DNA of 64,000 nucleotides from Clostridium sp. Marseille-P3244. Lineage in GTDB: Bacteria; Bacillota; Clostridia; Lachnospirales; Lachnospiraceae. The stretch covers positions 62,001 through 126,000 of the forward strand of contig NZ_LT635549.1 of NCBI RefSeq assembly GCF_900120155.1. The letters run 5' to 3'. Below, piece by piece: positions 6,999-63,434 of the stretch (position 1 is its first letter; every line of letters starts with the position of its first letter). The position numbers and the translations under genes were made by a program. A model generated the notes under the pieces. The model was not told where the DNA came from. It saw only the letters and a list, made by a program, of their open reading frames with translations, and searched no databases.

Positions 6999-9900
6999 TT
7001 ATCTTCTTTTCTTATTCCGGTATCCCAGCGCGCCGAATCCCGCGGCTGCTGCTCCGGACACGATAAGGAGAAGGAGCCAGGCCGTAACTCCGGCCCCGTC
7101 CCCGGTGTCTGCCGCTCTGGCCGCCTCTACGGTCCCATCTGCCGCCGCGCTTAACTGACCGGTATAAGCCTCTATTCCATATACTGTCAGTGAGATGGTA
7201 TGGCCGATATCGTCTGCCGTCAGCCGGTAAGAGCTCTCTGTCCCAAGGATTTCATCGCTTCCGCTCCGTCTCCACTCATACCTGACGTCCGCGTCCGCCG
7301 GAAGGACTCCGGACAGGTCTGCAGCCAGGGTCTCCCCGCTGATCATTTTTCCGCTGATCCGGAGGATCCCGCTGATCTCAACCGGCACATACTCCGGCAC
7401 GGAGATCTCGGAACACGGGGAAGCAAAGGCCGTTTCTGTGGCCTGGTAACGCACCTCGTACATTCCCGCGGCCAGACCTTCAAGAACGTCGCCTGCCAGC
7501 ATGTCTTCCGTAACCGGGATCCAGGTCTCATCTCCGGATCTGCGGTACTCCATGGCTGAAGTGACGCCGCTGATGGTTCCGTCCTCCGACTGATAGGACA
7601 CGGCTGTCCCTTCAAGGCCTTCAGGCGCGTCCGGCCTTGCGTCCACTGTCAGGATCTGGGCGCCGCTGTCCCGGCGGTCAGCCCCGTTCCCATTTCTTAT
7701 GATGACGAGTTCCTGTCCCATCCATCGCTCCGGGATATCCGCTGTGCCGTCTGCAGATGCCGTGACCGTCCCGCTTTCCAGGGCGTTGCTTTCTATCGTA
7801 TAGGATCCTTCCGGGGCCAGGCCGGTCAGCGTTTCCGCTCTGTAATCAATCACTGCCTGAGGCATCTCCCACTGTTCGCTGATCCGGACCGTGATCTGCT
7901 GTGTATTCGTATTTCCTGCATGATCCACTGCAGTGACGCTCAACAGATGCTCTCCCCTGCCGGAGATCTCCACAGTAAAATCACAGGACTCCGTAAGGCC
8001 GTCTGCTCGTCCTTGGCTGACCGGCACGGCTTCTTCTCCGTCCAGCGACCAGGTCACCTCCGCGATCCCGGAAGAGACCGCAGGAGACGCTTCTGTCCCG
8101 GCATCGGCAACTTCCACGATCACAGTTTCCTGATCCGGCAGCCATTGGGTCAGGTCAGCCCCTTCTGTGGCCGCCCGGAAACAGATCTCCGGGGCATTGT
8201 CCTCTACGATAATGCCGCCCGTACTGCTCAGATTCTTTGCGTCGGATACATTCCCCGCCGTATCTGTACAGGTGATGTCTGTCACCGTTCCCTTCCAGTC
8301 CGCTTCAAAGGTAAGTTCCGCCGCCTGGCCGTCGCCGTTATCTTCAAGCCGGACCGTCACGGTCTGTCCTTCGCCGCCGTCCTCCCGGACTGTACAGGTG
8401 ACCGCATCCGCCCCGCTTCCGTTCTCCTCCACGGGGATCCGGATGACCAGGCGCTCTTCCCCGACGATCCAGCCGGAAACTTCTTCTTTATACTCACAGG
8501 TGATCTCCCCGATCACAGGAGCTGCGGTATCCAGATTTACGGCAACAGACTGTTCCGTCCGGTTCCCTTCCGCGTCTTCCGTCCGGAACGTATAGGTGTG
8601 CTTTCCTTCCTGAAGATCCGTGTATTCATACTCCGTATCCACAGTCGTCCCATCTCCTGTCCCGGCCTCCGCGATTTCTGAGTATTCTCCTTCATCCACC
8701 TTTACATACAGCGCCGCCACGCCCTCATTGTCCGAATAAGTGAGCCTGATCTCCGGCTCGGTCTGCGCATTGTGCCAGACTGTTCCGTCGTCCGCTTCTC
8801 CTCCCTCCCGGGTAAGTTCCACAGACAGCGAGGGGCTGGCGATATCTGTCCACCCCGCGTAAAGTGTCAGATCGTCTTCCACTTCATCCCGACTGAAATC
8901 CCATGCATCCTGCAGCGCGCTGTCCTCATACCAGCCGTCAAACCTGTATCCTTCCCTGACAGGTTCTGCCGGCTCTGTCACCCTGTTATGCCATGACAGC
9001 CCTGTCTCATTTTCCACAGCGCTGCCGCCATTGCTCTCAAACGATACGGTCAGCGTCCTTCCCTCCCGGATCACAAATGTTTTTACAGGGCCGGGTTTGC
9101 TGACCTCTGTTTCCTGACAGCGTACATCATAGCTGCCCGGAGCCAGCCCCGTCAGCGCCCCTTCCGTCAGCATCTGCTCTGTGACCGCAATATATGCATC
9201 TTCTGTGGACAGCTTATATTCCATGGCCGTTGTGATGCCGGTGATGGTGCCGTCCGTTCGATTGCGGATCGTCTCATCTGTACTGCCGGCTCCGCTGATC
9301 TCCGCTCCGTCCGCTTTTTCCACCCGGGCCGTCTCAGCGCTCAGTTCCCCGGTATAAGCCTCTGTCCCGTATACTGTCAGAGTGATCGTATGTCCGATGT
9401 CGTCCGCCGTCAGAAGATAGGTCTGCTCTGTCCCGAGAACGTCCGCACTGCCGCTTCGCTTCCACTCATACCGGATGGTCGCCTCTCCCGGCGTCATCCC
9501 GGAGATGTCTGCAGTCAAAGTCTCCCCGTATTTCAGGCCCCCGCTGACCGCAATGCTTCCGCCGATCTCAACCAGCGTATATTCCGGCACAACGACACTC
9601 TTCGTCGGCGACACAAAACTGCTGTCTGTCGCCTGGAAACGCACCAGATATGTCCCTGCGGCAAGACCGGTCAGGCTGCCTTCCGTCAGCATGTCTTCCG
9701 TGATCTGGATCCAGGAAGTCTCTTCGTATTTCCGGTATTCCATCGCTGCAGTAACATTGGTGATGGTCCCGTCCTCCGACTGGTAAGACACGGACGTTCC
9801 TTCCAGGCCTTCGGGCGCGTCCGGTCTCTTATCCACCGGCAGATACTGCTCCTCACTGTCCCTGTAGTCGGTTCCGTTTCCCTGTCTCACGATCACAAGT

Positions 9901-12900
9901 CCCTGGCCCATCCACTGCTCTTTGATATCCACTGTACCGTCATCGGAAGCAGTGACTGTCTCGCCTGCTGCCACGCTGCTTTTTATTGTGTAAGAGCCGC
10001 CCGGCTCAAGGCCGGTCAGCGTTTCTTCCCTGTAATCAATGCCCGCGTCCGGCGTTTCCCGCTTCTCGCTGATCTTCACCTTAATGCTCTGTGTATTTGT
10101 ATTTCCCGCATGATCCACCGCAGTTACATTCAGCGTATGCTCTCCCCTGCCGGTGATCTCCACAGTAAAATCACAGGAATCTTCAAGGCTGCTGTCAAAT
10201 CCCTGATCACTTACGGACACTGCGTCCCCGCCGTCCAGCGACCAGGTCACCTCCGCAATCCCGGAAGAGATCCCATCGCCCGTTTCCTCCCGGGTATCGG
10301 CGACCTCCACGCTGACCGTTTCCTTATCCGGCAGCCATCCGGACAGATCCGCTCCTTCTGTAACTGCCTCAAAACTGATCTCCGGGGCATTGTCCTCCAC
10401 GATGATGCCGCCCGTGCTGCTTAAGCTCTTCACGGCGGACACATTCCCCGCTGTGTCGGTGCAGGTGATGTCTGTCACCGTCCCCTTCCAGTCTGCTTCA
10501 AATGTGAGCACAGCCTCCCGGCCGCCGTCGGTATCCGCCAGTTCCGCAGACAGTTTCTGCTCTTCACCGCCGTCCTGCTGAAGTGTATAGTCGATGGTTT
10601 CCGCCCCGCTTCCGTATTCTTCCACAGGGATCGTGATCACCAGGCTTTCCTTCCCGATGATCCAGTCAAGAAAATCTGCCGCCTTATATTCATAAGTGAT
10701 CTCTCCGATGACGGGCGCTGTGGTATCCAGGTTCACCGTGACAGACTGCTCCTTCCAGTTCTCTGCCGCGTCTTCCGCGCGGAACGTATAGGTATGCCTG
10801 CCCTCCTGAAGATCTGCATACTCATACTCTGTATCCTGGGGGGTTCCGCTTCCTGTCCCGGCCCCGGAGATTTCTTCAAAGTCTCCGTCGTCCACTTTTA
10901 CATACAGGGCGGTCACGCCTTCATTGTCTGAATAGTTCAGTCTGATTTCCGGCTCGGTCTGCGCATTGTGCCATACTGTACCGTCGTCCGCCGCGCTGCC
11001 CTCCCGGGTAAGTTCCACAGACAGCGAGGGATCTGTCACATCGATCCAGCGCCCGTAGAACGTGCGTGTTCCGGTCTCCTCCGCTCCGATAGCTGTCTGG
11101 CGCTCCCCGTCGCTGTAATCGGACTGCAGATACCATCCGTCAAATGTATAGCCTTCTCTCGCCGGCTGGGGCAGGGTCAGCCCGACCCCGTAAGTATAGG
11201 ACTGATAAGAGATGTCCGGCGTATAGGTCTCCCCACCGATCTGGTAGGACACGGAATACTCTTCCGCCTCCCACTTTGCGTAAAGTGTCGTGTTTTCTTT
11301 TATCTGCGTATCAAAATCATAGGCCTCTGTGCAGTCCTCGTCCGTGTACCAGCCCTCAAATGTATGGCCGGTGAGTTCCGGATCTGACGGTTTCTGCACT
11401 TTGCACTGTACAGAAGTATCCTCCGATCCTTCCGGAAGAGTCGTCCACACCAGCTGAGAAGAGACACTGCTGCCTTCCCCTGTATCAAACGTCACCTCAT
11501 GGACATAGACCGTGTCATATCCTGTATTTCCCGCTCCGGTCATATATCTGAAGTAATAAGTTCCGGAATCTTTCACCGTATATGTGTCCGTCAGAGCACC
11601 GCTGTCCTGTCTGGAGTCCAGTTCTTCCATGGCTTCCGCGTCGCTGCTGTCTCCCGCCAGGATGCTCCCGCCGGAGGGTCCGTACCCTTCCGCTGAAACT
11701 GTAAAGGTAATGCCGTCCGCAGCCGTCTGCCCGGCGGACGGTCCCGAAACCTCGAGCTCCGGCTCTGAAGAATCTTTCTTGATGGCCTGGGAATATCCGC
11801 TGGTACTGTTTCCCGCCTGATCCGTCACCAGGTAATACAGATACCAGGTCCCGTTGGCGGAATCTGCCGCCGCTGTCCCCAGAGAGACCGTCCCGCCGCT
11901 GGCGGGCAGATCCTGCAGTTCTTCTTCCGCCGGCACGTCCGTATTGCCGGTCACAAAAGCGTATTTCGCGTCTTCAATGCCGCTGGGCTCTCCGCCCTCG
12001 CTGCCGTTGGCGCCATCCGCATAGGTTACGGCAACGGAAACCGGCGTGGTCTTAAACCATCCGTCCTCCCCGTCGGGCGTCAGGCTTCCCAGCGTCACGG
12101 TGGGATCCGTAGTGTCGATCCCGCTTACTTCTACGGTATATGTCCTGCTGTTTCCCGCCTGGTCCGTCAGCCTTACACTGTATGTGCCGTTGACCGCCAC
12201 GGTAAATGTATTTCCGGTAAACGCTGTCCAGCTGCCGCTGTTTCCCAGCCGGTATTCCCGTGTCCGGATGCCGCTTCCCGAACGGCCGGTATAGTTTCCG
12301 CTGCTGTCATACTGAGAAGTATTGTCATCTGTCGGCGTCGTAAGAGTAACTGTCGCCGTCTGCCCCTGGGATGAGGCGCTGATATTCCCCAGAGAAGGCG
12401 CTTCATTGTCCAGATAATTGACGATAATCTCCTCCGTGTCTGTATTTCCGTATTCATCGATCACAGAGAACACGTACATGCCGTTTTCCGTCACTGTACA
12501 GCTTCCGGAAGAAGGAAGCGCCGTCACGCCGTCGCTGATGCTCATTCCGTCCGGTGTGACAATGGAAGAGATATCTCCCGCCCCCGTTCCCGTACCGGCG
12601 GTCACGCTCCATTCCAAAACAGCGGAACCTGAAGTCCAGCCGGTGGGGTTCCCCGTGACCGTGATGGACGGGAGCGCGGTTCCCGATGCCGGAGCGATGA
12701 CGTCGTATCCGTCGGAATGTGTGGTAAAGGTATTCCCCGCCCCGTCCGTGGCTCTGACATAAAGGTATCTGGTCGTCCTTGTGCTTTCCGTGGCGGTGTA
12801 TTCCGCTGTATAACTTCCGTCCGCCCGGGGGTTCAGCGTACTCCATGCCGACGGTTCGCTCTCACTTGTGGTCCAGGCATACTCCACCGAGGCAATGCCG

Positions 12901-15900
12901 CTCCCTCCGGTATCCGAAGGGCTCACGGAGAAGGCAAGCTCATTGTACACCGCGCCCGTTCCGCTTCCGCTCCGCAGTGTGACCGACGGCACTTGCGTAT
13001 CGATCATCTGTACATTCACCGTCCTGGTCAGGACATTCCCGAAAGAATCTGTCAGCGTGACCGTATAAACGCCGTTCTCCGTCACTCTCAGATAACGGGT
13101 CCCGCCGCTGTCCCGGAAGGTCTGGCTGTCGTTCTGGGGCCCGCTGAATGTCAGCGTAGTATCGGAAGCAGACTGGGTCCCGGTGTATTCCACCACGATG
13201 TATTTATATGGCCTCCATACACTGGACACATCTGCGCCGGAGGCAGATCCGCTCTCCCGGACAGACACGCCTGTGATGGCCGGCTGCTGAAAACTGAAAC
13301 TTTCATAAGTATGGGCGGAAGCTCCTGTATCGGTTGTCGCCAGCACATGGAGATACCACGTGGACACCGCTCCGGCTGTCCCGGAATCCTGGGCCGCCGT
13401 AATGGTCTCCCCGCTACTCACCTCTGTCCACCCGTAGGCGGGCAGGGCTGTATCCGTCGTCCACACATACTGGACGCGATCCGCGTTCGCCGCAGTGATG
13501 GTCGCCGTGTGGCTGGGACGCGCCCCTGTCGTATTGGCCGTGATCGTCGCAGAAGGCTGCGAGGCATCCACGGTTACGTTCGTATTGCCGCTCACGGCGG
13601 ATGTGGTTCCCGTCGTGGCGCACATATCCTTGATCCCGCCGGCATTGCTGACCGACGTCACCTGCAGCGCACTGCTGCCGTCCAGGCTGACGGACGTATC
13701 TACCTCACCCGTAAAATACAGCACATTTGTGTCCGCTCCTCCGGCATAAGTCAGAGTACCCACATTGGTGGTGATGGTGAGCCCGTTCAGGGTGCTGTTC
13801 TGACTGTCCACGATCTCGTCAAAGACCAGGGACACCGTGATGGTATCGCCCGGGAGATAGGTTCCTCCCGCCATGGGCGCCACGCCCAGCAGCCGGGGTT
13901 CCGTCCCATCGCCCACAACGGCATAGCTGGTCAGCCCGTCCAGGTACCATCTGTCCTGGCCGGAGCCATTGGCCCCGAAATAGATGTACGCGGTCTGGTC
14001 CGTGGCCAGAGAGACATATTCCCTGCCATTGTAGGACGTGGCGCTGTTGGAGATCCTGTGGGGACGATAGCTGTTTTCACCGCCTCCGCTGCTGGAAGAC
14101 GGGAACGAGTACTGCCCGGCAGCATCCCTCTGCCCCTGCAGGAACGTACATGCCCAGAGCTGTCCGGCAATGCCGGACACCGCATTTGCGCTCCCTCCTT
14201 TGTCGTAATACCGGTCCTCCACAGGCTGGGTGCCGATATAAGCGTTCTCATAGCCGTCTTCATCCTCATAGACCCACATCTGATACCGGTAGTACCAGTT
14301 CCCGGCCGTGGCGCTTATGTATTCCCGTTCCCGGTCTGTATAATAATCCGATAAGTCGGCGTCATCATGCCAGTTCTGTACATTGTTGCGGTTGGTCAGG
14401 AAATTTACATTGTATTCTCTGGCTCCCTGTCCTCTTTCTCCGTCCGCGATATACTGCCCGTCCGTCGTCTTGTTCGCCGTCTCCGCCAGCTGGACCAAAG
14501 ACCGCTCGGAGGTATAGATATCCCGGCTGACCGTGTAATCTCCGCTGCGGGTCATCGTGCGGGTCATGGACGCACCGTCCCCGTCGATGGACGCGCCGCC
14601 CTCCACACGGAAGATCTCCAGGGAATAGGTGCGGTCCGCGTTGGAATACCGGGTTCCCGCGTCGCCGTCATAAGCCGCGGTCACCCCCTGTTCGGTGACA
14701 GTAACTGTCTTCGCGGAAGCATCTCCGTCCGCAAAGGTCACCGATCCGGACGCATGGGTAAAGTGGGTCCCTCCCACAGCGGATCCGTTGACGGTGCGGT
14801 AGTACACGGTCTGCGCCCCGTCGGATCCTCCGGTCCGGCTGATGGTAAAGACCGCCTGCCCGCTCCCGCCGCTTACTCCGCTTATGGAGATGGTTCCATA
14901 GTCCGGGATCCCGGATCCAAACTGGAGGGGATCACTGTACACCACATCACCGTCAGAAGTGCGGGCATAGGCCCGCGCATAGTACACAATACCGCCGGCG
15001 ATCCCTGTGGCCGTCCCGGACAGCGTCCCGCCTTTCACCGTTACAGGGCCTGATGTCTGAACAGTCCCGTTGTTCAGATCCAGCGTGGGATTGGCCGTCA
15101 CTCCCCAGACAAAACCGGTCTCAGTAATCGCCTCTCCCCCGGTATATGTCAGCACGGCGGACAGAGCAAAGCTGTCCCCTGTGCCCTCCTGGGCCTCCTC
15201 CATCGTCAGCGTCAGCGGCAGCGGCGTCACTGTGACGGCACAGTCTTCCTGCGCCGTGTTCCCCACTGAGTCCACAGCTGTCACCCGGACATACTTTGTC
15301 CCGGGAGCGCCGGTGATATCATCCGGGATGGTGTAGGAAAGAGGCTCCTCCGCCAGCCTTACATTGTCAGAGACGGTCAGCTCTTTCGCGAAAAGCTCCC
15401 TTAGTTCCTCTACATCCGTCTCCTCTGTCACAGACACTGTATGATACTGGATCTCCGGCGGCGTCTTATCAATGTTTGTGACCTGCACCGTATAGGTACA
15501 TGTTGTGTCAGTCCCATCCAGCTTATAACGGACCACAAACGTATATATCCCGTTAACTTCTGCTACTTGTACCGGTACTGGCACAGACACATCCGTGACT
15601 CCCAATTCTTCCGATCCCTCCGCGCTCACCGTGATGGTCACGCTGCCCGCCGTCGTCTCCTCTGTAGACAGCGTATGGGTGATCCTGGGACCCAGTCCGG
15701 CCCCGCTGACAAAATAAAAGGTGATCTCGTCTGTCGCCTTGATCTGTTCATTCTCATCCTTCAGAATTCCTGTGATCCTGTAAAGTCCGGACTCCGAGTT
15801 CAGCGGCATGTCAAGTCCGATGGTCTCGGCCCCGTTGCCCGCAAGGCTTCCGAAACAGGCGTCCAGGGCGTTGCCTGTGGCGTCCTGGATCAGCGTATAT

Positions 15901-17237
15901 TCCGTCATATACGTCTCATTCCCGTTCTGGCGGACTTCCACGTCTGCCTCTACAGTCACTGTACGGTCCGCCACAGAGGCATCTGCCAGATCCAGAGAGA
16001 AACTTTCAATGTTCTCATCCGATTCGCCGCCGTCCAGGATCAGCTGCATCCAGTCTATCTGAACACACCACCCGGTGGCGATGGTGACAGAGATTACATT
16101 TTTCCCGAGCTGGAGTTTTTCCAGAGGGATCTCAAGCACGGTCGTGTTCCACGTATTATTGGTTCCGGACAGATACCCGATAGTCCCGTCATTATAGGAG
16201 TGTTCGTGACTGTTCTCCTGATCCATGGGGTCGTAAATATCGTCGTTGATGTATACATAGTCGGTCTCCCCGGAGTCCTCGTCCACGTCGTACGCTTTGA
16301 CCGCCAGGTAAGCGCTCTGGGTGGGCAGTTCATCCAGTGTAAAAGCGATCTCTATGGGATGGGACGAACGCCACTCGGACATGCTGGCATCAATATCCCC
16401 GTCGCGGCTTCCGGTATGGGCGTTGTTCTCATTGTCCTCGGTGACCATCAGCGTCTGTGGATGCGTCTCCTCTGACTGAAGTGACACGGCCGTACTGTTC
16501 CTGGAAAAACTGCGGAGCATGGAGGAAGTCTGTGTATTCTCCTCGGGAAGCGTTACCCCGTAGTCTTCCACAAGATCTTCCAGCGTCAGAAGTTCCGGCA
16601 CTTCATCCTGTTCCATCTCTTCCCTGACAGCCTCCGGATAATGGATGGGACAGTCCAGATCCATACAGTCCCCTTCCGTCTCCGCGATGTGGCGCGCCGC
16701 CTCGTCATCTTCCGATTCCTGATCTGTACTTTCTCCACTTTCTCCGGACGTATCCTGATCCGGTACATTGCCGTCATTCCCGTCTTCCGGCACGCCGGCC
16801 GTCCCGTTATCCGCCGCATCATCCGTCACTGTTACAGAGACCGCCGGAAGGCTGACATCCTCCGGCAGGACATATTCCTCCGGGAGCACAGGCGTGAATA
16901 CATATTCTCCCTCAGCCAAGCCGTCATACTCCGGTTCGCTCTCCCATGTAATATCCGTAATACTGACCGTTTCATCCGCCGTATCCTGTATGTATGCTTC
17001 CAGCTCCTCCGGCAACGGCAGATCTTCCTTCTGCGTCCCCACCGGCACCGTCTGCCGGGCTTCCTCTTCCGAAAGTTCCGCGAACCCGGCCACGCTGACA
17101 GTTTCATGCCCCGAAAAATCTGCTGATTCAGCCGTCCCGGAATCTGTCCCCGCAGATACCGCAGTGATCCCCGCCTGTCCTGACAACAGCGCGGCGGCCA
17201 GAATTCCCGCCAGTACTCTCTGTCTCATATATCTCAT
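6999..17237 (-). CDS. Giant multidomain surface protein (3412 aa)
   Basis: A secreted, probably surface-anchored protein. It has an N-terminal signal peptide (about 1-29, RQRVLAGILAAALLSG core), an acidic linker and a carbohydrate-binding-like beta domain near 285-400. A Calx-beta-like repeat lies near 780-860 (YYRTVNGSAVGGTHF). A long series of Ig-like/bacterial Big-type modules contains repeated GNT and DTTAPVI phrases. InlB-type beta-grasp repeats (FEGWYTDEDC, FDGWYLQSDY, FDGWYEDSAL) lie near 1950-2060 and 2700-2790. A final transmembrane helix with tail RNKKRR ends the protein. Just before it is AADTGD rather than LPxTG, so sortase anchoring is uncertain. GAGGAG lies 9 nt upstream of the ATG. 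No enzymatic domain was recognised; a role in adhesion or polysaccharide binding is inference. Confidence 0.88.
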   Translation of the reverse strand: MRYMRQRVLAGILAAALLSGQAGITAVSAGTDSGTAESADFSGHETVSVAGFAELSEEEARQTVPVGTQKEDLPLPEELEAYIQDTADETVSITDITWESEPEYDGLAEGEYVFTPVLPEEYVLPEDVSLPAVSVTVTDDAADNGTAGVPEDGNDGNVPDQDTSGESGESTDQESEDDEAARHIAETEGDCMDLDCPIHYPEAVREEMEQDEVPELLTLEDLVEDYGVTLPEENTQTSSMLRSFSRNSTAVSLQSEETHPQTLMVTEDNENNAHTGSRDGDIDASMSEWRSSHPIEIAFTLDELPTQSAYLAVKAYDVDEDSGETDYVYINDDIYDPMDQENSHEHSYNDGTIGYLSGTNNTWNTTVLEIPLEKLQLGKNVISVTIATGWCVQIDWMQLILDGGESDENIESFSLDLADASVADRTVTVEADVEVRQNGNETYMTEYTLIQDATGNALDACFGSLAGNGAETIGLDMPLNSESGLYRITGILKDENEQIKATDEITFYFVSGAGLGPRITHTLSTEETTAGSVTITVSAEGSEELGVTDVSVPVPVQVAEVNGIYTFVVRYKLDGTDTTCTYTVQVTNIDKTPPEIQYHTVSVTEETDVEELRELFAKELTVSDNVRLAEEPLSYTIPDDITGAPGTKYVRVTAVDSVGNTAQEDCAVTVTPLPLTLTMEEAQEGTGDSFALSAVLTYTGGEAITETGFVWGVTANPTLDLNNGTVQTSGPVTVKGGTLSGTATGIAGGIVYYARAYARTSDGDVVYSDPLQFGSGIPDYGTISISGVSGGSGQAVFTISRTGGSDGAQTVYYRTVNGSAVGGTHFTHASGSVTFADGDASAKTVTVTEQGVTAAYDGDAGTRYSNADRTYSLEIFRVEGGASIDGDGASMTRTMTRSGDYTVSRDIYTSERSLVQLAETANKTTDGQYIADGERGQGAREYNVNFLTNRNNVQNWHDDADLSDYYTDREREYISATAGNWYYRYQMWVYEDEDGYENAYIGTQPVEDRYYDKGGSANAVSGIAGQLWACTFLQGQRDAAGQYSFPSSSSGGGENSYRPHRISNSATSYNGREYVSLATDQTAYIYFGANGSGQDRWYLDGLTSYAVVGDGTEPRLLGVAPMAGGTYLPGDTITVSLVFDEIVDSQNSTLNGLTITTNVGTLTYAGGADTNVLYFTGEVDTSVSLDGSSALQVTSVSNAGGIKDMCATTGTTSAVSGNTNVTVDASQPSATITANTTGARPSHTATITAANADRVQYVWTTDTALPAYGWTEVSSGETITAAQDSGTAGAVSTWYLHVLATTDTGASAHTYESFSFQQPAITGVSVRESGSASGADVSSVWRPYKYIVVEYTGTQSASDTTLTFSGPQNDSQTFRDSGGTRYLRVTENGVYTVTLTDSFGNVLTRTVNVQMIDTQVPSVTLRSGSGTGAVYNELAFSVSPSDTGGSGIASVEYAWTTSESEPSAWSTLNPRADGSYTAEYTATESTRTTRYLYVRATDGAGNTFTTHSDGYDVIAPASGTALPSITVTGNPTGWTSGSAVLEWSVTAGTGTGAGDISSIVTPDGMSISDGVTALPSSGSCTVTENGMYVFSVIDEYGNTDTEEIIVNYLDNEAPSLGNISASSQGQTATVTLTTPTDDNTSQYDSSGNYTGRSGSGIRTREYRLGNSGSWTAFTGNTFTVAVNGTYSVRLTDQAGNSRTYTVEVSGIDTTDPTVTLGSLTPDGEDGWFKTTPVSVAVTYADGANGSEGGEPSGIEDAKYAFVTGNTDVPAEEELQDLPASGGTVSLGTAAADSANGTWYLYYLVTDQAGNSTSGYSQAIKKDSSEPELEVSGPSAGQTAADGITFTVSAEGYGPSGGSILAGDSSDAEAMEELDSRQDSGALTDTYTVKDSGTYYFRYMTGAGNTGYDTVYVHEVTFDTGEGSSVSSQLVWTTLPEGSEDTSVQCKVQKPSDPELTGHTFEGWYTDEDCTEAYDFDTQIKENTTLYAKWEAEEYSVSYQIGGETYTPDISYQSYTYGVGLTLPQPAREGYTFDGWYLQSDYSDGERQTAIGAEETGTRTFYGRWIDVTDPSLSVELTREGSAADDGTVWHNAQTEPEIRLNYSDNEGVTALYVKVDDGDFEEISGAGTGSGTPQDTEYEYADLQEGRHTYTFRAEDAAENWKEQSVTVNLDTTAPVIGEITYEYKAADFLDWIIGKESLVITIPVEEYGSGAETIDYTLQQDGGEEQKLSAELADTDGGREAVLTFEADWKGTVTDITCTDTAGNVSAVKSLSSTGGIIVEDNAPEISFEAVTEGADLSGWLPDKETVSVEVADTREETGDGISSGIAEVTWSLDGGDAVSVSDQGFDSSLEDSCDFTVEITGRGEHTLNVTAVDHAGNTNTQSIKVKISEKRETPDAGIDYREETLTGLEPGGSYTIKSSVAAGETVTASDDGTVDIKEQWMGQGLVIVRQGNGTDYRDSEEQYLPVDKRPDAPEGLEGTSVSYQSEDGTITNVTAAMEYRKYEETSWIQITEDMLTEGSLTGLAAGTYLVRFQATDSSFVSPTKSVVVPEYTLVEIGGSIAVSGGLKYGETLTADISGMTPGEATIRYEWKRSGSADVLGTEQTYLLTADDIGHTITLTVYGTEAYTGELSAETARVEKADGAEISGAGSTDETIRNRTDGTITGITTAMEYKLSTEDAYIAVTEQMLTEGALTGLAPGSYDVRCQETEVSKPGPVKTFVIREGRTLTVSFESNGGSAVENETGLSWHNRVTEPAEPVREGYRFDGWYEDSALQDAWDFSRDEVEDDLTLYAGWTDIASPSLSVELTREGGEADDGTVWHNAQTEPEIRLTYSDNEGVAALYVKVDEGEYSEIAEAGTGDGTTVDTEYEYTDLQEGKHTYTFRTEDAEGNRTEQSVAVNLDTAAPVIGEITCEYKEEVSGWIVGEERLVIRIPVEENGSGADAVTCTVREDGGEGQTVTVRLEDNGDGQAAELTFEADWKGTVTDITCTDTAGNVSDAKNLSSTGGIIVEDNAPEICFRAATEGADLTQWLPDQETVIVEVADAGTEASPAVSSGIAEVTWSLDGEEAVPVSQGRADGLTESCDFTVEISGRGEHLLSVTAVDHAGNTNTQQITVRISEQWEMPQAVIDYRAETLTGLAPEGSYTIESNALESGTVTASADGTADIPERWMGQELVIIRNGNGADRRDSGAQILTVDARPDAPEGLEGTAVSYQSEDGTISGVTSAMEYRRSGDETWIPVTEDMLAGDVLEGLAAGMYEVRYQATETAFASPCSEISVPEYVPVEISGILRISGKMISGETLAADLSGVLPADADVRYEWRRSGSDEILGTESSYRLTADDIGHTISLTVYGIEAYTGQLSAAADGTVEAARAADTGDGAGVTAWLLLLIVSGAAAAGFGALGYRNKKRR
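7150..11060 (-). repeat. 2.2-kb tandem in-frame duplication inside the giant surface gene
   Basis: Two diverged copies of one block follow each other. The same landmark (TCATTG in the DNEGV coding region) occurs at 8725 and 10921, a period of 2196 nt or 732 codons. Another landmark (GGTATAAGCC) occurs at 7161 and 9351, 2190 nt apart. Both copies run from the PSLSVELTREG module through the DTAAPVIGEIT-like modules to the LTADDIGHTI module. The second copy stops just before the anchor. Confidence 0.85.
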
Positions 17238-17431
17238 ATCGACGTTCTCCTCTTCCGTATCTCAGTTTATTTTGTCCCCCCGCCGATCCCTGATCTGTAA
17301 CAGCCCGCAGCAACCTCCCGAAACATGCGGAGGAAATATGCTGCGCAGCCGTTGCTTCTTATATTATATCAATATTCCATTTCCCCGGAAAATCAGGGGA
17401 ACAATCTGCGCTTTTTCGGGTATAATCTGCA

Positions 17432-17460
17432 TAAAAAAAGAGACCTATGAAAGTCTCTCT
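17432..17460 (-). terminator. Intrinsic terminator of the Abi cassette
   Basis: On the minus strand AGAGAC, an 8-nt loop and GTCTCT are followed by a run of seven T. It lies 36 nt behind the Abi-like stop codon and ahead of the promoter region of the giant gene. It closes the Abi cassette as an independent unit. Confidence 0.8.
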
Positions 17461-17495
17461 TCTGTCCGGTATTTTTGTTGTCATACTGTTATCAT

Positions 17496-18377
17496 CTAAG
17501 TATCATGTTGCAGCAGGTCTTTCCAATTTAGAGGAAATCCCATCGTTTTTATTTCAACACTCTCATATTTCTCAAATAGTAACTCGATCCTTTCCACAAA
17601 CAAATTCCAATGTCTGTCATTCATCAGCAGATGTTTTAAGCATAATAACACTCCAAATATCCTATTATTTCTAATTCCAGCTTTTGAATATTCTTTATAT
17701 AATATTGGGGTCTTTGACAATTTTGCATTATATAAACGTCCATAATGTGCACATATATTTCGGACATATGCAATGCACTCCATCCAGCTTTCGAGATATG
17801 TATATCCAACACCAAATGATTTTGCTACTATCTTTTTATCTCCATTCTTCATATTCTTGTAAAATTTTGATAATGTACCAAAGCTGAACACCTCAACCAG
17901 CGCATAAATCGGCAATTGTCCACCTTCATAATTCTCTCGAAAATTTCTCACAGACGGAGCCTTAAAGTTTCTATGTATTTCCGCCTCTATATCATTTAAA
18001 AAACTTTTATGGTATTCCGGATTTATAAATTTATCCGAATCCAAATAGCCTAAAACACCATAGTTTTCCGCAAAAAAATTTGAAATCCGGCATCTTACAT
18101 TAATTTCTACTTTTTCTATTTCCGGAAATATCAATTGACGGAAATTTGAATTAAAAAGATATAAATCTACAATCTGTTCAAAAGTTACACCTTTATAATA
18201 ATTCCCATTCTTCGGCTTTAAATTCAGGCTGTAAGCTTTAATTAATCTAAAATAAGATATGTCATTCAATATTTGTTTTGCGTATTCTTCATCGTTGACA
18301 ATCAGTCCTATACTTTTTAGATTTTCTACTTGTTCATCAATTGTCATAGGCGGCTGATGTATTTTTTGTTCACCCAT
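17496..18377 (-). CDS. Abi_2 (AbiD/AbiF-like) HEPN abortive-infection protein
   Basis: A 293-aa protein with the layout of the Abi_2 family: an N-terminal motif around ISYFRLIKAYS (residues 40-50), a central helical region with EKVEINVRCRISNFF, and the C-terminal HEPN ribonuclease motif RNICAH (R206, N207, H211; R-x4-H) followed by YGRLYN. These proteins are associated with abortive phage defence and are thought to cut RNA. The gene is visibly AT-rich against its neighbours, suggesting transfer. It has its own promoter, a short 5' hairpin RNA (18395-18447), a GGAGA ribosome binding site 7-8 nt before the ATG and its own terminator. Both HEPN residues look intact, so activity is plausible. AbiF versus AbiD cannot be decided by eye. 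Confidence 0.85.
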   Translation of the reverse strand: MGEQKIHQPPMTIDEQVENLKSIGLIVNDEEYAKQILNDISYFRLIKAYSLNLKPKNGNYYKGVTFEQIVDLYLFNSNFRQLIFPEIEKVEINVRCRISNFFAENYGVLGYLDSDKFINPEYHKSFLNDIEAEIHRNFKAPSVRNFRENYEGGQLPIYALVEVFSFGTLSKFYKNMKNGDKKIVAKSFGVGYTYLESWMECIAYVRNICAHYGRLYNAKLSKTPILYKEYSKAGIRNNRIFGVLLCLKHLLMNDRHWNLFVERIELLFEKYESVEIKTMGFPLNWKDLLQHDT

Positions 18378-18394
18378 ACAATATTCTCCCTGAA

Positions 18395-18447
18395 ATTAAA
18401 AGACCCAACGTGGTCCGCATCGTTGAGAGGCGTGTTGGGTTCTGTTA
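18395..18447 (-). ncRNA. Putative AbiF-associated structured RNA (antitoxin or leader)
   Basis: A compact hairpin lies between a strong promoter and the Abi-like gene. On the minus strand ACCCAAC (18440-18434) can pair with GTTGGGT (18409-18403), followed by TCTTTTAATTT. An inner CAACG (18425-18421) can pair alternatively with CGTTG (18410-18406), so two mutually exclusive folds are possible. The predicted transcription start (about 18447) sits only a few nt before the first arm, so the hairpin is at the extreme 5' end. Abi_2/AbiF genes are known to me to be paired with conserved upstream RNAs. This one fits that position, but its boundaries and function are inference. Confidence 0.6.
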
Positions 18448-18453
18448 ATATGT

Positions 18454-18482
18454 ATTATATGCGCCCATGACAAAAAAATCAA
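18454..18482 (-). promoter_or_regulatory. Strong promoter of the hairpin RNA / Abi gene
   Basis: On the minus strand TTGATT (18482-18477), a 17-nt spacer and a perfect TATAAT (18459-18454). Transcription would start near 18447, directly at the hairpin. Confidence 0.75.
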
Positions 18483-18521
18483 CCCGAAAATCAGCCTTTG
18501 GGAATTTTTCCGCTCTGCTCA

Positions 18522-18763
18522 TTACCTACGCGAACATTGACCGGTAATAGATACCGCTGTATCTGATTCTAGCATTCGGCCACTCTCATGGAGAGCGAAC
18601 ATCTCTTCGCAGATCTTTCTCCCGATCCCTGTCCTGAATATTTTATCCAGGACAGACTCCGCGCTGTTTTTGCCCATCTGGTCTTCATACAGGTTCACAA
18701 GGAAATCTGCCTCCACCAGAATCTGATAATCCGCTCCGTGAATATCTGTATATGTGACACTCC
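18522..18763 (-). pseudogene. Remnant of an HD-domain phosphohydrolase (C-terminus only)
   Basis: The reading frame here encodes TYTDIHGADYQILVEADF and then DKIFRTGIGRKICEEMF. I recognise this as the C-terminal tail of clostridial HD-superfamily hydrolases that carry the DYQILVEADFLVNLYED motif. The catalytic HD part is missing. The fragment starts within a few nt of the end of the truncated nitroreductase, so the two remnants meet at what looks like a deletion junction. An ATG further up in this frame lies inside the nitroreductase and does not make a credible gene. Confidence 0.6.
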
Positions 18764-63161: not shown

Positions 63162-63434
63162 AAAAAAAGTCGCCTCCTTTTCGTACTTTTAACTTCAGTA
63201 CGACAAGCGGTGACTGTACACTCTCCCGTGTGTGTCGTGAGAAACATACACGGCGCTCCCGCTTTTCAACTCCTGCCGCGGTATTGTACCGCACACAAAA
63301 ACGGGATACTGTTGTGATTCGTACAGTGACTTGTCGCCAGTTTCCTAACTTGACATTCGCTCCACGGAAAACCTGCCTTCGCTTATTTCTTCGCTGGGCA
63401 GCAACCTCACGCTTCACAGCTATCATGTCACAGC
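63162..63434 (-). promoter_or_regulatory. S10 operon leader (structured 5' UTR)
   Basis: About 270 nt between the predicted transcription start and rpsJ. A hairpin CGTACT/AGTACG (63202-63197 with 63187-63182) sits directly before the ribosome binding site. Other GC-rich inverted segments are present. It may be an autogenous control leader (L4-type control is known elsewhere), but I cannot match it to a known leader. Confidence 0.5.

Follow-up and report, generated by a model that had tools for sequence, protein, structure and literature searches.

A segment of the Clostridium sp. Marseille-P3244 genome of 64,000 nucleotides (hereafter the window, meaning the whole stretch that was analysed) contains, on its minus strand, a chromosomal and probably horizontally acquired AbiF module that very likely acts like a type III toxin-antitoxin pair, a reading to which we assign a probability of roughly 0.88. 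The feature is real, and it represents a compact, one-hairpin example of an already known system, as the abiF RNA, the AbiF toxin-antitoxin pair and the kinship to Cas13 are all already in print. The parts of the module, their conservation, a covarying stem and a one-sided pattern of gene loss are observed directly, and the module is laid out as follows:

18454..18482, minus strand: sigma-70-type promoter TTGATT-17-TATAAT, with 10 of 12 consensus matches
18392..18448, minus strand: abiF RNA, comprising a 5' leader AACAG, the hairpin and a U-rich tail (extent of our model R1, 82 bits; covariation)
18403..18439, minus strand: core hairpin of the abiF RNA (Rfam RF03085, 36.7 bits, E 1.2e-4)
18386..18391, minus strand: probable ribosome binding site AGGGAG (from reading the sequence)
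17496..18377, minus strand: abiF gene, encoding a 293-aa Abi_2/HEPN protein (Pfam PF07751, PADLOC AbiD, PDB 8vz6)
17745..17762, minus strand: HEPN catalytic motif R206-N-I-C-A-H211 (invariant residues, 8vz6 alignment)
17434..17463, minus strand: terminator hairpin followed by a T run (-14.0 kcal/mol)

The order on the minus strand is therefore promoter, abiF RNA, ribosome site, a 293-codon gene that starts 26 nt past the core hairpin, and terminator. An earlier note, made from the sequence alone, had described an AbiF-like cassette with a 5' hairpin RNA that may restrain the toxin, and this is borne out: the hairpin matches the conserved abiF RNA and is most likely an RNA antitoxin, for which there is a precedent in C. 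difficile (PMC12373285). The individual parts it named are likewise present: the promoter at 18482-18454 (-), a compact 5' hairpin, an AT-rich Abi_2 gene (31.6% GC, 179.5 bits) with an intact R-x4-H, and the gene's own terminator, a hairpin at 17463-17434 (-) with a T run after it that is absent from the pattern-scan listing. By itself the TTGATT-17-TATAAT match is within chance expectation, with seven promoter-like sites of 10/12 matches in the region against 5.3 +- 2.4 in shuffles. Its position relative to the hairpin is nevertheless kept: the -10 box begins 19-20 nt 5' of the hairpin in 84 of 89 distinct loci, where the mean promoter match is 9.99/12 versus 7.85 in shuffled upstream DNA. 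The transcript probably starts near 18447.

The window protein exceeds the Abi_2 cut-off by a wide margin (179.5 vs 25.6 bits, Pfam PF07751, E 1.1e-52), is called AbiD by PADLOC (E 9.2e-103), and matches PDB 8vz6, an "Abi family protein", along its whole length (E 3.3e-37), with the fold covered. Its HEPN motif R-x4-H is intact (RNICAH, residues 206-211); R206, N207, A210 and H211 are invariant among 19 aligned sequences. In the alignment with 8vz6 (PbAbiF), R206 falls on R210 and H211 on H215, and an R210A+H215A variant of PbAbiF is reported to be inactive (PMC12373285). Phage phiC2 has a homologue that shares 37.5% identity with the window protein across 95% of its length and is reported to be 99.88% identical to the C. 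difficile toxin that was tested (PMC12373285). A second Abi_2 gene in the same genome, 32% identical to that of the window, has an abiF RNA of its own (33.6 bits with the Rfam model, 59.8 bits with R1), and among phages AbiF-like proteins are present in 74 records, of which 53 bear the name Streptococcus.

The Rfam abiF family (RF03085), a search with which the earlier note had proposed as a check, matches 18439-18403 (-) end to end at 36.7 bits (E 1.2e-4); this is 0.3 bits under the gathering score of 37, and the RNA is not listed in a gathering scan. Our own model R1 scores 82 bits at 18448-18392, the window sequence being part of its training set. The folding energy of the hairpin is unremarkable (z -0.33, with 70 of 200 shuffles folding equally well), and since folding energy alone says little, the reality of the hairpin rests on conservation and covariation. 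Conservation upstream of close Abi_2 homologues, another check suggested in that note, was indeed found: across 77 distinct sequences, the window included, whose proteins range from about 89% down to about 30% identity, pairing is intact in 97.3% of the cells that make up the main and inner stems. Changes on both sides occur in 8 of the 10 stem pairs, amounting to 85 such cells against 17.2 in shuffles, while additional pair types (13 vs 12.3) do not discriminate. The alignment was built by sequence, from sites chosen for a 6-bp stem, which favours pairing as such and not particular base changes. It derives from 100 hairpins found automatically in 136 loci, one of which was dropped as false (L133) and one hand-corrected (L084), leaving 99; exclusion of identical sequences and of L004 (the same site as L026) gave the 77 rows. 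A model search recovers the RNA in 72 of 72 loci given, most of them already in the model's own alignment.

The note had furthermore claimed two mutually exclusive pairings and proposed to look for covariation in both stems. Covariation supports the first of these. The proposed switch, in which the loop CAACG pairs with CGTTG of the 3' arm, is possible in the window sequence but is not conserved among the 77, with pair 25-54 failing in 36 and pair 40-51 in 21 of them, and we rejected it. The second pairing does lie slightly above shuffles (76.9% vs 71.2% paired; covariation 0.243 vs 0.191), which we attribute to columns that it shares with the true stem.

With regard to origin, the abiF coding sequence has a GC content of 31.6% against 55.7 and 57.7% in its 5-kb flanks, and the gene was therefore probably acquired. 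A phage origin of the locus was considered and rejected, as the cassette has chromosomal neighbours, one being a nitroreductase and the other a large Calx-beta protein. Viral contigs scanned with a protein pattern also speak against it, giving one relative among 375 candidate stretches, although RNA-core scans of viral contigs run afterwards did recover Abi_2 in 10 viral loci. In an empty-site comparison the flank was matched in 13 of 58 genomes of the genus, chiefly by short pieces. Elsewhere in the window, 6999-17237 (-) encodes a 3412-aa repetitive, surface-like protein with a Calx-beta domain within the 1000 residues scanned, and an S10-Clostridia ribosomal protein leader lies at 63331-63425 (-) (89.5 bits).

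Gene loss is one-sided among the relatives: toxin loss is frequent, and an intact toxin without RNA is rare. In the best 80 loci out of 420 from named genomes, R1 found the RNA for 67 of the 70 toxins that are intact and for five of the nine that are broken, the other four lacking the RNA (Fisher p 0.0025); one further locus runs into a contig end. The three intact toxins lacking an R1 match are L134 and L137, both from Bacteroidales, which have a similar but divergent hairpin by eye (18.8 bits in L134), and L101, where the RNA was not detected and an ISL3 transposase lies directly upstream. From the RNA side, a search of 392 genomes from across the order gave 70 R1 matches, spread over 59 genomes, and an Abi_2 match lay within 400 nt downstream of 42 of these and was absent for 28; at 45 bits or more the count is 45 matches, 16 of them with no Abi_2 within 400 nt. 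This orphan count may be inflated by draft genomes and divergent genes: the search may have missed distant Abi_2 genes downstream of some "orphan" RNAs, and orphans could also simply reflect recent toxin loss. Scars of the lost gene are visible at some orphan RNAs, with the first codons kept in L171, L182 and L183 and the last codons in L176 and L183. Within the genus of the window organism, any R1 match occurs in 8 of 58 genomes; five RNAs are of the window type, and just the window's own has an intact toxin. At L191-L194 a 36-nt hairpin is identical to that of the window and the aligned stretches are 87-96% identical, yet the toxin is broken or missing, and in L003, where the RNA core is lost, the toxin is truncated as well. 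Loss that leaves 3 of 70 toxins without RNA and 28 of 70 RNAs without Abi_2 fits an antitoxin role. Separately, at L174:989-2044 an orphan abiF RNA and its promoter lie directly 5' of an intact RhuM-family gene (Pfam Virulence_RhuM) that is not Abi_2.

The module would then work as follows. One promoter would produce a short RNA, the one hairpin of which serves as antitoxin, with a fraction of transcripts continuing into the gene for the HEPN RNase toxin. The RNA would bind an AbiF dimer and silence the RNase, with each monomer taking up one RNA, as PbAbiF is reported to do; phage infection may then disturb the RNA supply or the complex, so that free AbiF would cut RNA and growth of the infected cell would stop. 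By analogy with published relatives, we infer toxicity, binding in trans and phage defence for the window module, and we likewise infer that its RNA binds the protein as the PbAbiF RNA does, presumably through the loop and the 3' bulge. Our guess is that the hairpin and U-rich tail would double as an attenuator that keeps the RNA in excess over toxin mRNA. Attenuation by the hairpin, suggested earlier as well, is possible, and plausible for hairpin and tail together.

One may also consider that the hairpin binds no protein and serves the abiF mRNA solely in cis, as an attenuator or leader, which we regard as quite unlikely. The hairpin is fixed at the mRNA 5' end, as such an explanation would have it, and a T-rich stretch follows the stem in 65 of 98 hairpins (at least five T within 8 nt 3' of the stem; in a more distal stretch the count is 0 of 98). 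The strongest conservation, however, falls not on the stem plus U run alone but on the loop, a conserved CCUCU...AUG, and on a conserved 3' bulge ending in ACCA; moreover, solitary RNAs persist without the gene, and the C. difficile RNA works in trans by binding the toxin (PMC12373285). Kinship of AbiF to Cas13, raised in the earlier note and already published (PMC12373285, PMC12737573), could alternatively suggest an RNA-guided nuclease whose hairpin carries a guide. This we consider highly improbable, since the loop and its flanks are near-constant across sequences, leaving no variable spacer, and the 293-aa protein has a single HEPN domain in a cassette devoid of a repeat array. Type VI systems have two HEPN domains and a CRISPR array; here there was one Abi_2 match, and no repeat or CRISPR array was found within 17300-18700, where the search returned one chance-like 18-nt pair at 78%.

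Returning to the antitoxin reading, the closest known system is AbiF-Cd/RCd22 of C. difficile phi027, which like the window module combines an Abi_2 R-x4-H toxin and a 5'-leader abiF motif under a common promoter (PMC12373285). AbiF-Cd is toxic when expressed alone and is neutralised by its abiF RNA; this RNA acts in cis as a repressor, also neutralises the toxin in trans, and is recovered together with the protein on purification (PMC12373285). RCd22 is part of a prophage lysis module and combines two motifs with a terminator of its own (PMC12373285), whereas the window module has one hairpin, no separate terminator that we could find and chromosomal neighbours. PbAbiF (PDB 8vz6; Zilberzwige-Tal et al.), in which one RNA is bound per monomer and the nuclease is inhibited by bases of a single-stranded bulge (PMC12737573), is a whole-length relative of the window protein with aligned catalytic residues; it is a Prevotellaceae protein, and the comparison is one of proteins. 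Two AbiF-related covariance models of Zilberzwige-Tal 2025 are mentioned in PMC12804078. The type III system ToxIN likewise has an RNA antitoxin neutralising an RNase, but its toxin fold and RNA are unrelated and the RNA comes in repeat arrays (PMC3475682); at the window locus there is one R1 match, i.e. tandem repeats of the antitoxin RNA are not present, and no tandem hairpin copy was found among direct repeats at the cassette. Against the antitoxin reading we count the 0.3 bits by which the RNA falls short in Rfam, the one hairpin in place of the two motifs of RCd22 or ToxIN-type repeats, the lack of a detected separate terminator between RNA and gene, and the intact toxin of L101 with no detected RNA. 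Between RNA and gene the pattern scan lists just the hairpin itself with TCTTTTAATTT, which could serve as a separate terminator ahead of the toxin gene. Overall, what the earlier note observed is confirmed, and its interpretation is partly supported.

Other leader RNAs precede other Abi_2 genes. A second class (alignment A4, model R2), upstream of more distant Abi_2 genes (L008, L011-L017 and L027), consists of a CAGTGATC leader, a 7-bp covarying stem and then a terminator-like hairpin, with both-side changes in 11 of 19 predicted pairs. R2 has 53 matches in 39 of 392 genomes, 29 of them followed within 400 nt by an Abi_2 match and 24 not, and gave one weak match (18.5 bits) in 60 phage or plasmid loci. 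A third type (A5; L019, L020, L021 and L025) has the layout AATTAGCGAATGACTG...CGGTCGC followed by a strong terminator-like hairpin. Neither the second class nor the third type had an Rfam match.

Solitary abiF RNAs also occur in viruses. A strict scan of viral contigs with a 24-nt core gave 55 stretches and a relaxed core at least 120, for a total of at least 122 viral loci (L264-L318 and L322-L388; L319-L321 and L415-L424 belong to the solitary set that includes phages and a plasmid). R1 scores in all 55 strict loci and in 66 of the 67 further loci listed, L385 having no match. Abi_2 is contained in 10 of the 122 viral loci listed, and the remainder comprise at least 101 distinct solitary sites. 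Two R1 matches per locus were found in seven cases among the loci listed (L273, L284, L292, L312, L326, L354 and L370). Save for one base, the search pattern does not cover the outer stem, which thus provides a nearly independent test: the sites listed have 47 different 5' arms, 39 of which pair at six or more of seven positions, compared with 8.1 on average and at most 15 for random arm partners (1000 shuffles). With one site per arm (alignment A6, sites listed), there are 100 cells with both-side changes against 32.5 +- 4.5 in shuffles, while the number of pairs showing such changes (6 vs 5.6) does not discriminate. Many of the sites adjoin tRNAs, 22 of the 101 listed lying within 50 nt of a tRNA gene where 4.8 would be expected from random positions in the same loci; within 150 nt there are 28, all on the same strand as the tRNA, a weak argument given how often phage genes run in one direction. 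No Abi_2 was found in 78 whole records (65 viral contigs, possibly incomplete, 12 phage records and one plasmid), a subset of the solitary loci in which L315 and L314 share one record.

Named phage records were found by blastn, 22 at E <=0.1 and, in overlapping sets, 44 and 53 at E <=1; all 12 phage loci read have an R1 match, at 28-48 bits. The carriers include Bacillus phages phiNIT1 and SBSphiJ (Nitunavirus), Bp8p-C and phiAGATE (Agatevirus) and P59, where the RNA sits between tRNAs 8 and 9 of 15. In Enterococcus phages phiSHEF4, dArtagnan and KEN21 it lies between terminase genes, and in Aeromonas phage PT2 it is flanked by the genes for the connector and for capsid assembly. Sulfurimonas phage SNW-1, one faecal phage and Streptococcus phage Javan129, which is presumably a prophage, complete the list. 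Herelleviridae and Studiervirinae are virulent phages. In SNW-1, Javan129 and KEN21 the RNA overlaps small annotated hypothetical genes. Rfam's own threshold detects abiF in 4 of the 18 phage or plasmid loci given. Ten plasmid records were found and five read. The listed host of P59 is Cytobacillus oceanisediminis, whose plasmid pBO1 has an abiF RNA with the gene of an "Abi family protein" after it, making P59 and pBO1 a suggestive pair of phage and AbiF host; the pBO1 layout is repeated in three other plasmids read, and pBpOF4-01 has a solitary abiF RNA with no Abi_2 in 285 kb. Other Rfam families, namely skipping-rope RNA, ROOL RNA and DUF3800-VIII RNA, lie near phage abiF RNAs (L319:4005-4075, L421:2417-2486, L272:5403-5987, L321:3352-3415), and L321 has, by eye, another abiF-like hairpin after the first one. 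The terminase gap of phiSHEF4 and dArtagnan (L415:2450-3080, L416:1560-2200) shows several TATAAT-like boxes by eye, one just 5' of the abiF RNA, and may encode additional small RNAs.

We think it fairly likely, on comparative grounds, that the solitary abiF RNAs of virulent phages and at least one plasmid are decoy antitoxins that would silence AbiF, with a protein-binding core that is kept, lineage-specific stems, and a location that is often in tRNA arrays or between late genes, sometimes in pairs. Bacterial orphans left after toxin loss may likewise protect against incoming AbiF elements. There are precedents in the pseudo-ToxI of phages that copy an antitoxin RNA (PMC3475682) and in Racr RNA anti-CRISPRs, which are also solitary phage RNAs mimicking the RNA partner of a defence protein; Racr RNAs, however, mimic CRISPR repeats and are proven by experiment, while the evidence for the phage abiF RNAs is comparative alone (PMC10651486). 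A DNA region of phage sk1 protects phage 712 from AbiF, according to a title cited in PMC12737573. The lytic cyanophage S-CREM1 carries a solitary abiF sRNA like the phage copies here, and the paper describing it mentions three Rfam phage sequences of abiF; the word "abortive" is absent from its text, and the passages available contain no anti-AbiF role (PMC9964418). We found no proposal in the open-access literature searched that phage abiF RNAs are anti-AbiF mimics.

It is possible, though we hold it only tentatively, that the phage copies are not mimics but leftovers of prophage abiF modules, or RNAs with an unrelated role such as tRNA processing. L283 retains the tail of an Abi_2 gene by eye, and the 10 viral loci with Abi_2 would agree with leftovers, just as the numerous copies adjoining tRNAs would agree with an unrelated role. 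What argues for mimics instead is the diversity of 5' arms that still pair at 6 or 7 of 7 positions, the threefold excess of both-side changes over shuffles among the sites listed, the absence of Abi_2 from all 78 records, and the constancy of the loop and bulge, presumably the protein-binding part, even though the search pattern selected for them.

The cassette itself is a further AbiF module, a very compact one with a single hairpin, and the gene losses that have occurred naturally in related loci show the gene behaving as a toxin and the RNA as its antidote. Of more consequence than the cassette is that the antidote RNA is common in phages with no detected toxin and has many different covarying stems there, and it is these solitary RNAs of phages that deserve to be followed up; with SBSphiJ, a model phage of the laboratory host Bacillus subtilis, the mimic reading is directly testable. 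If they are mimics, RNA counter-defence against relatives of the ancestor of Cas13 would be widespread.
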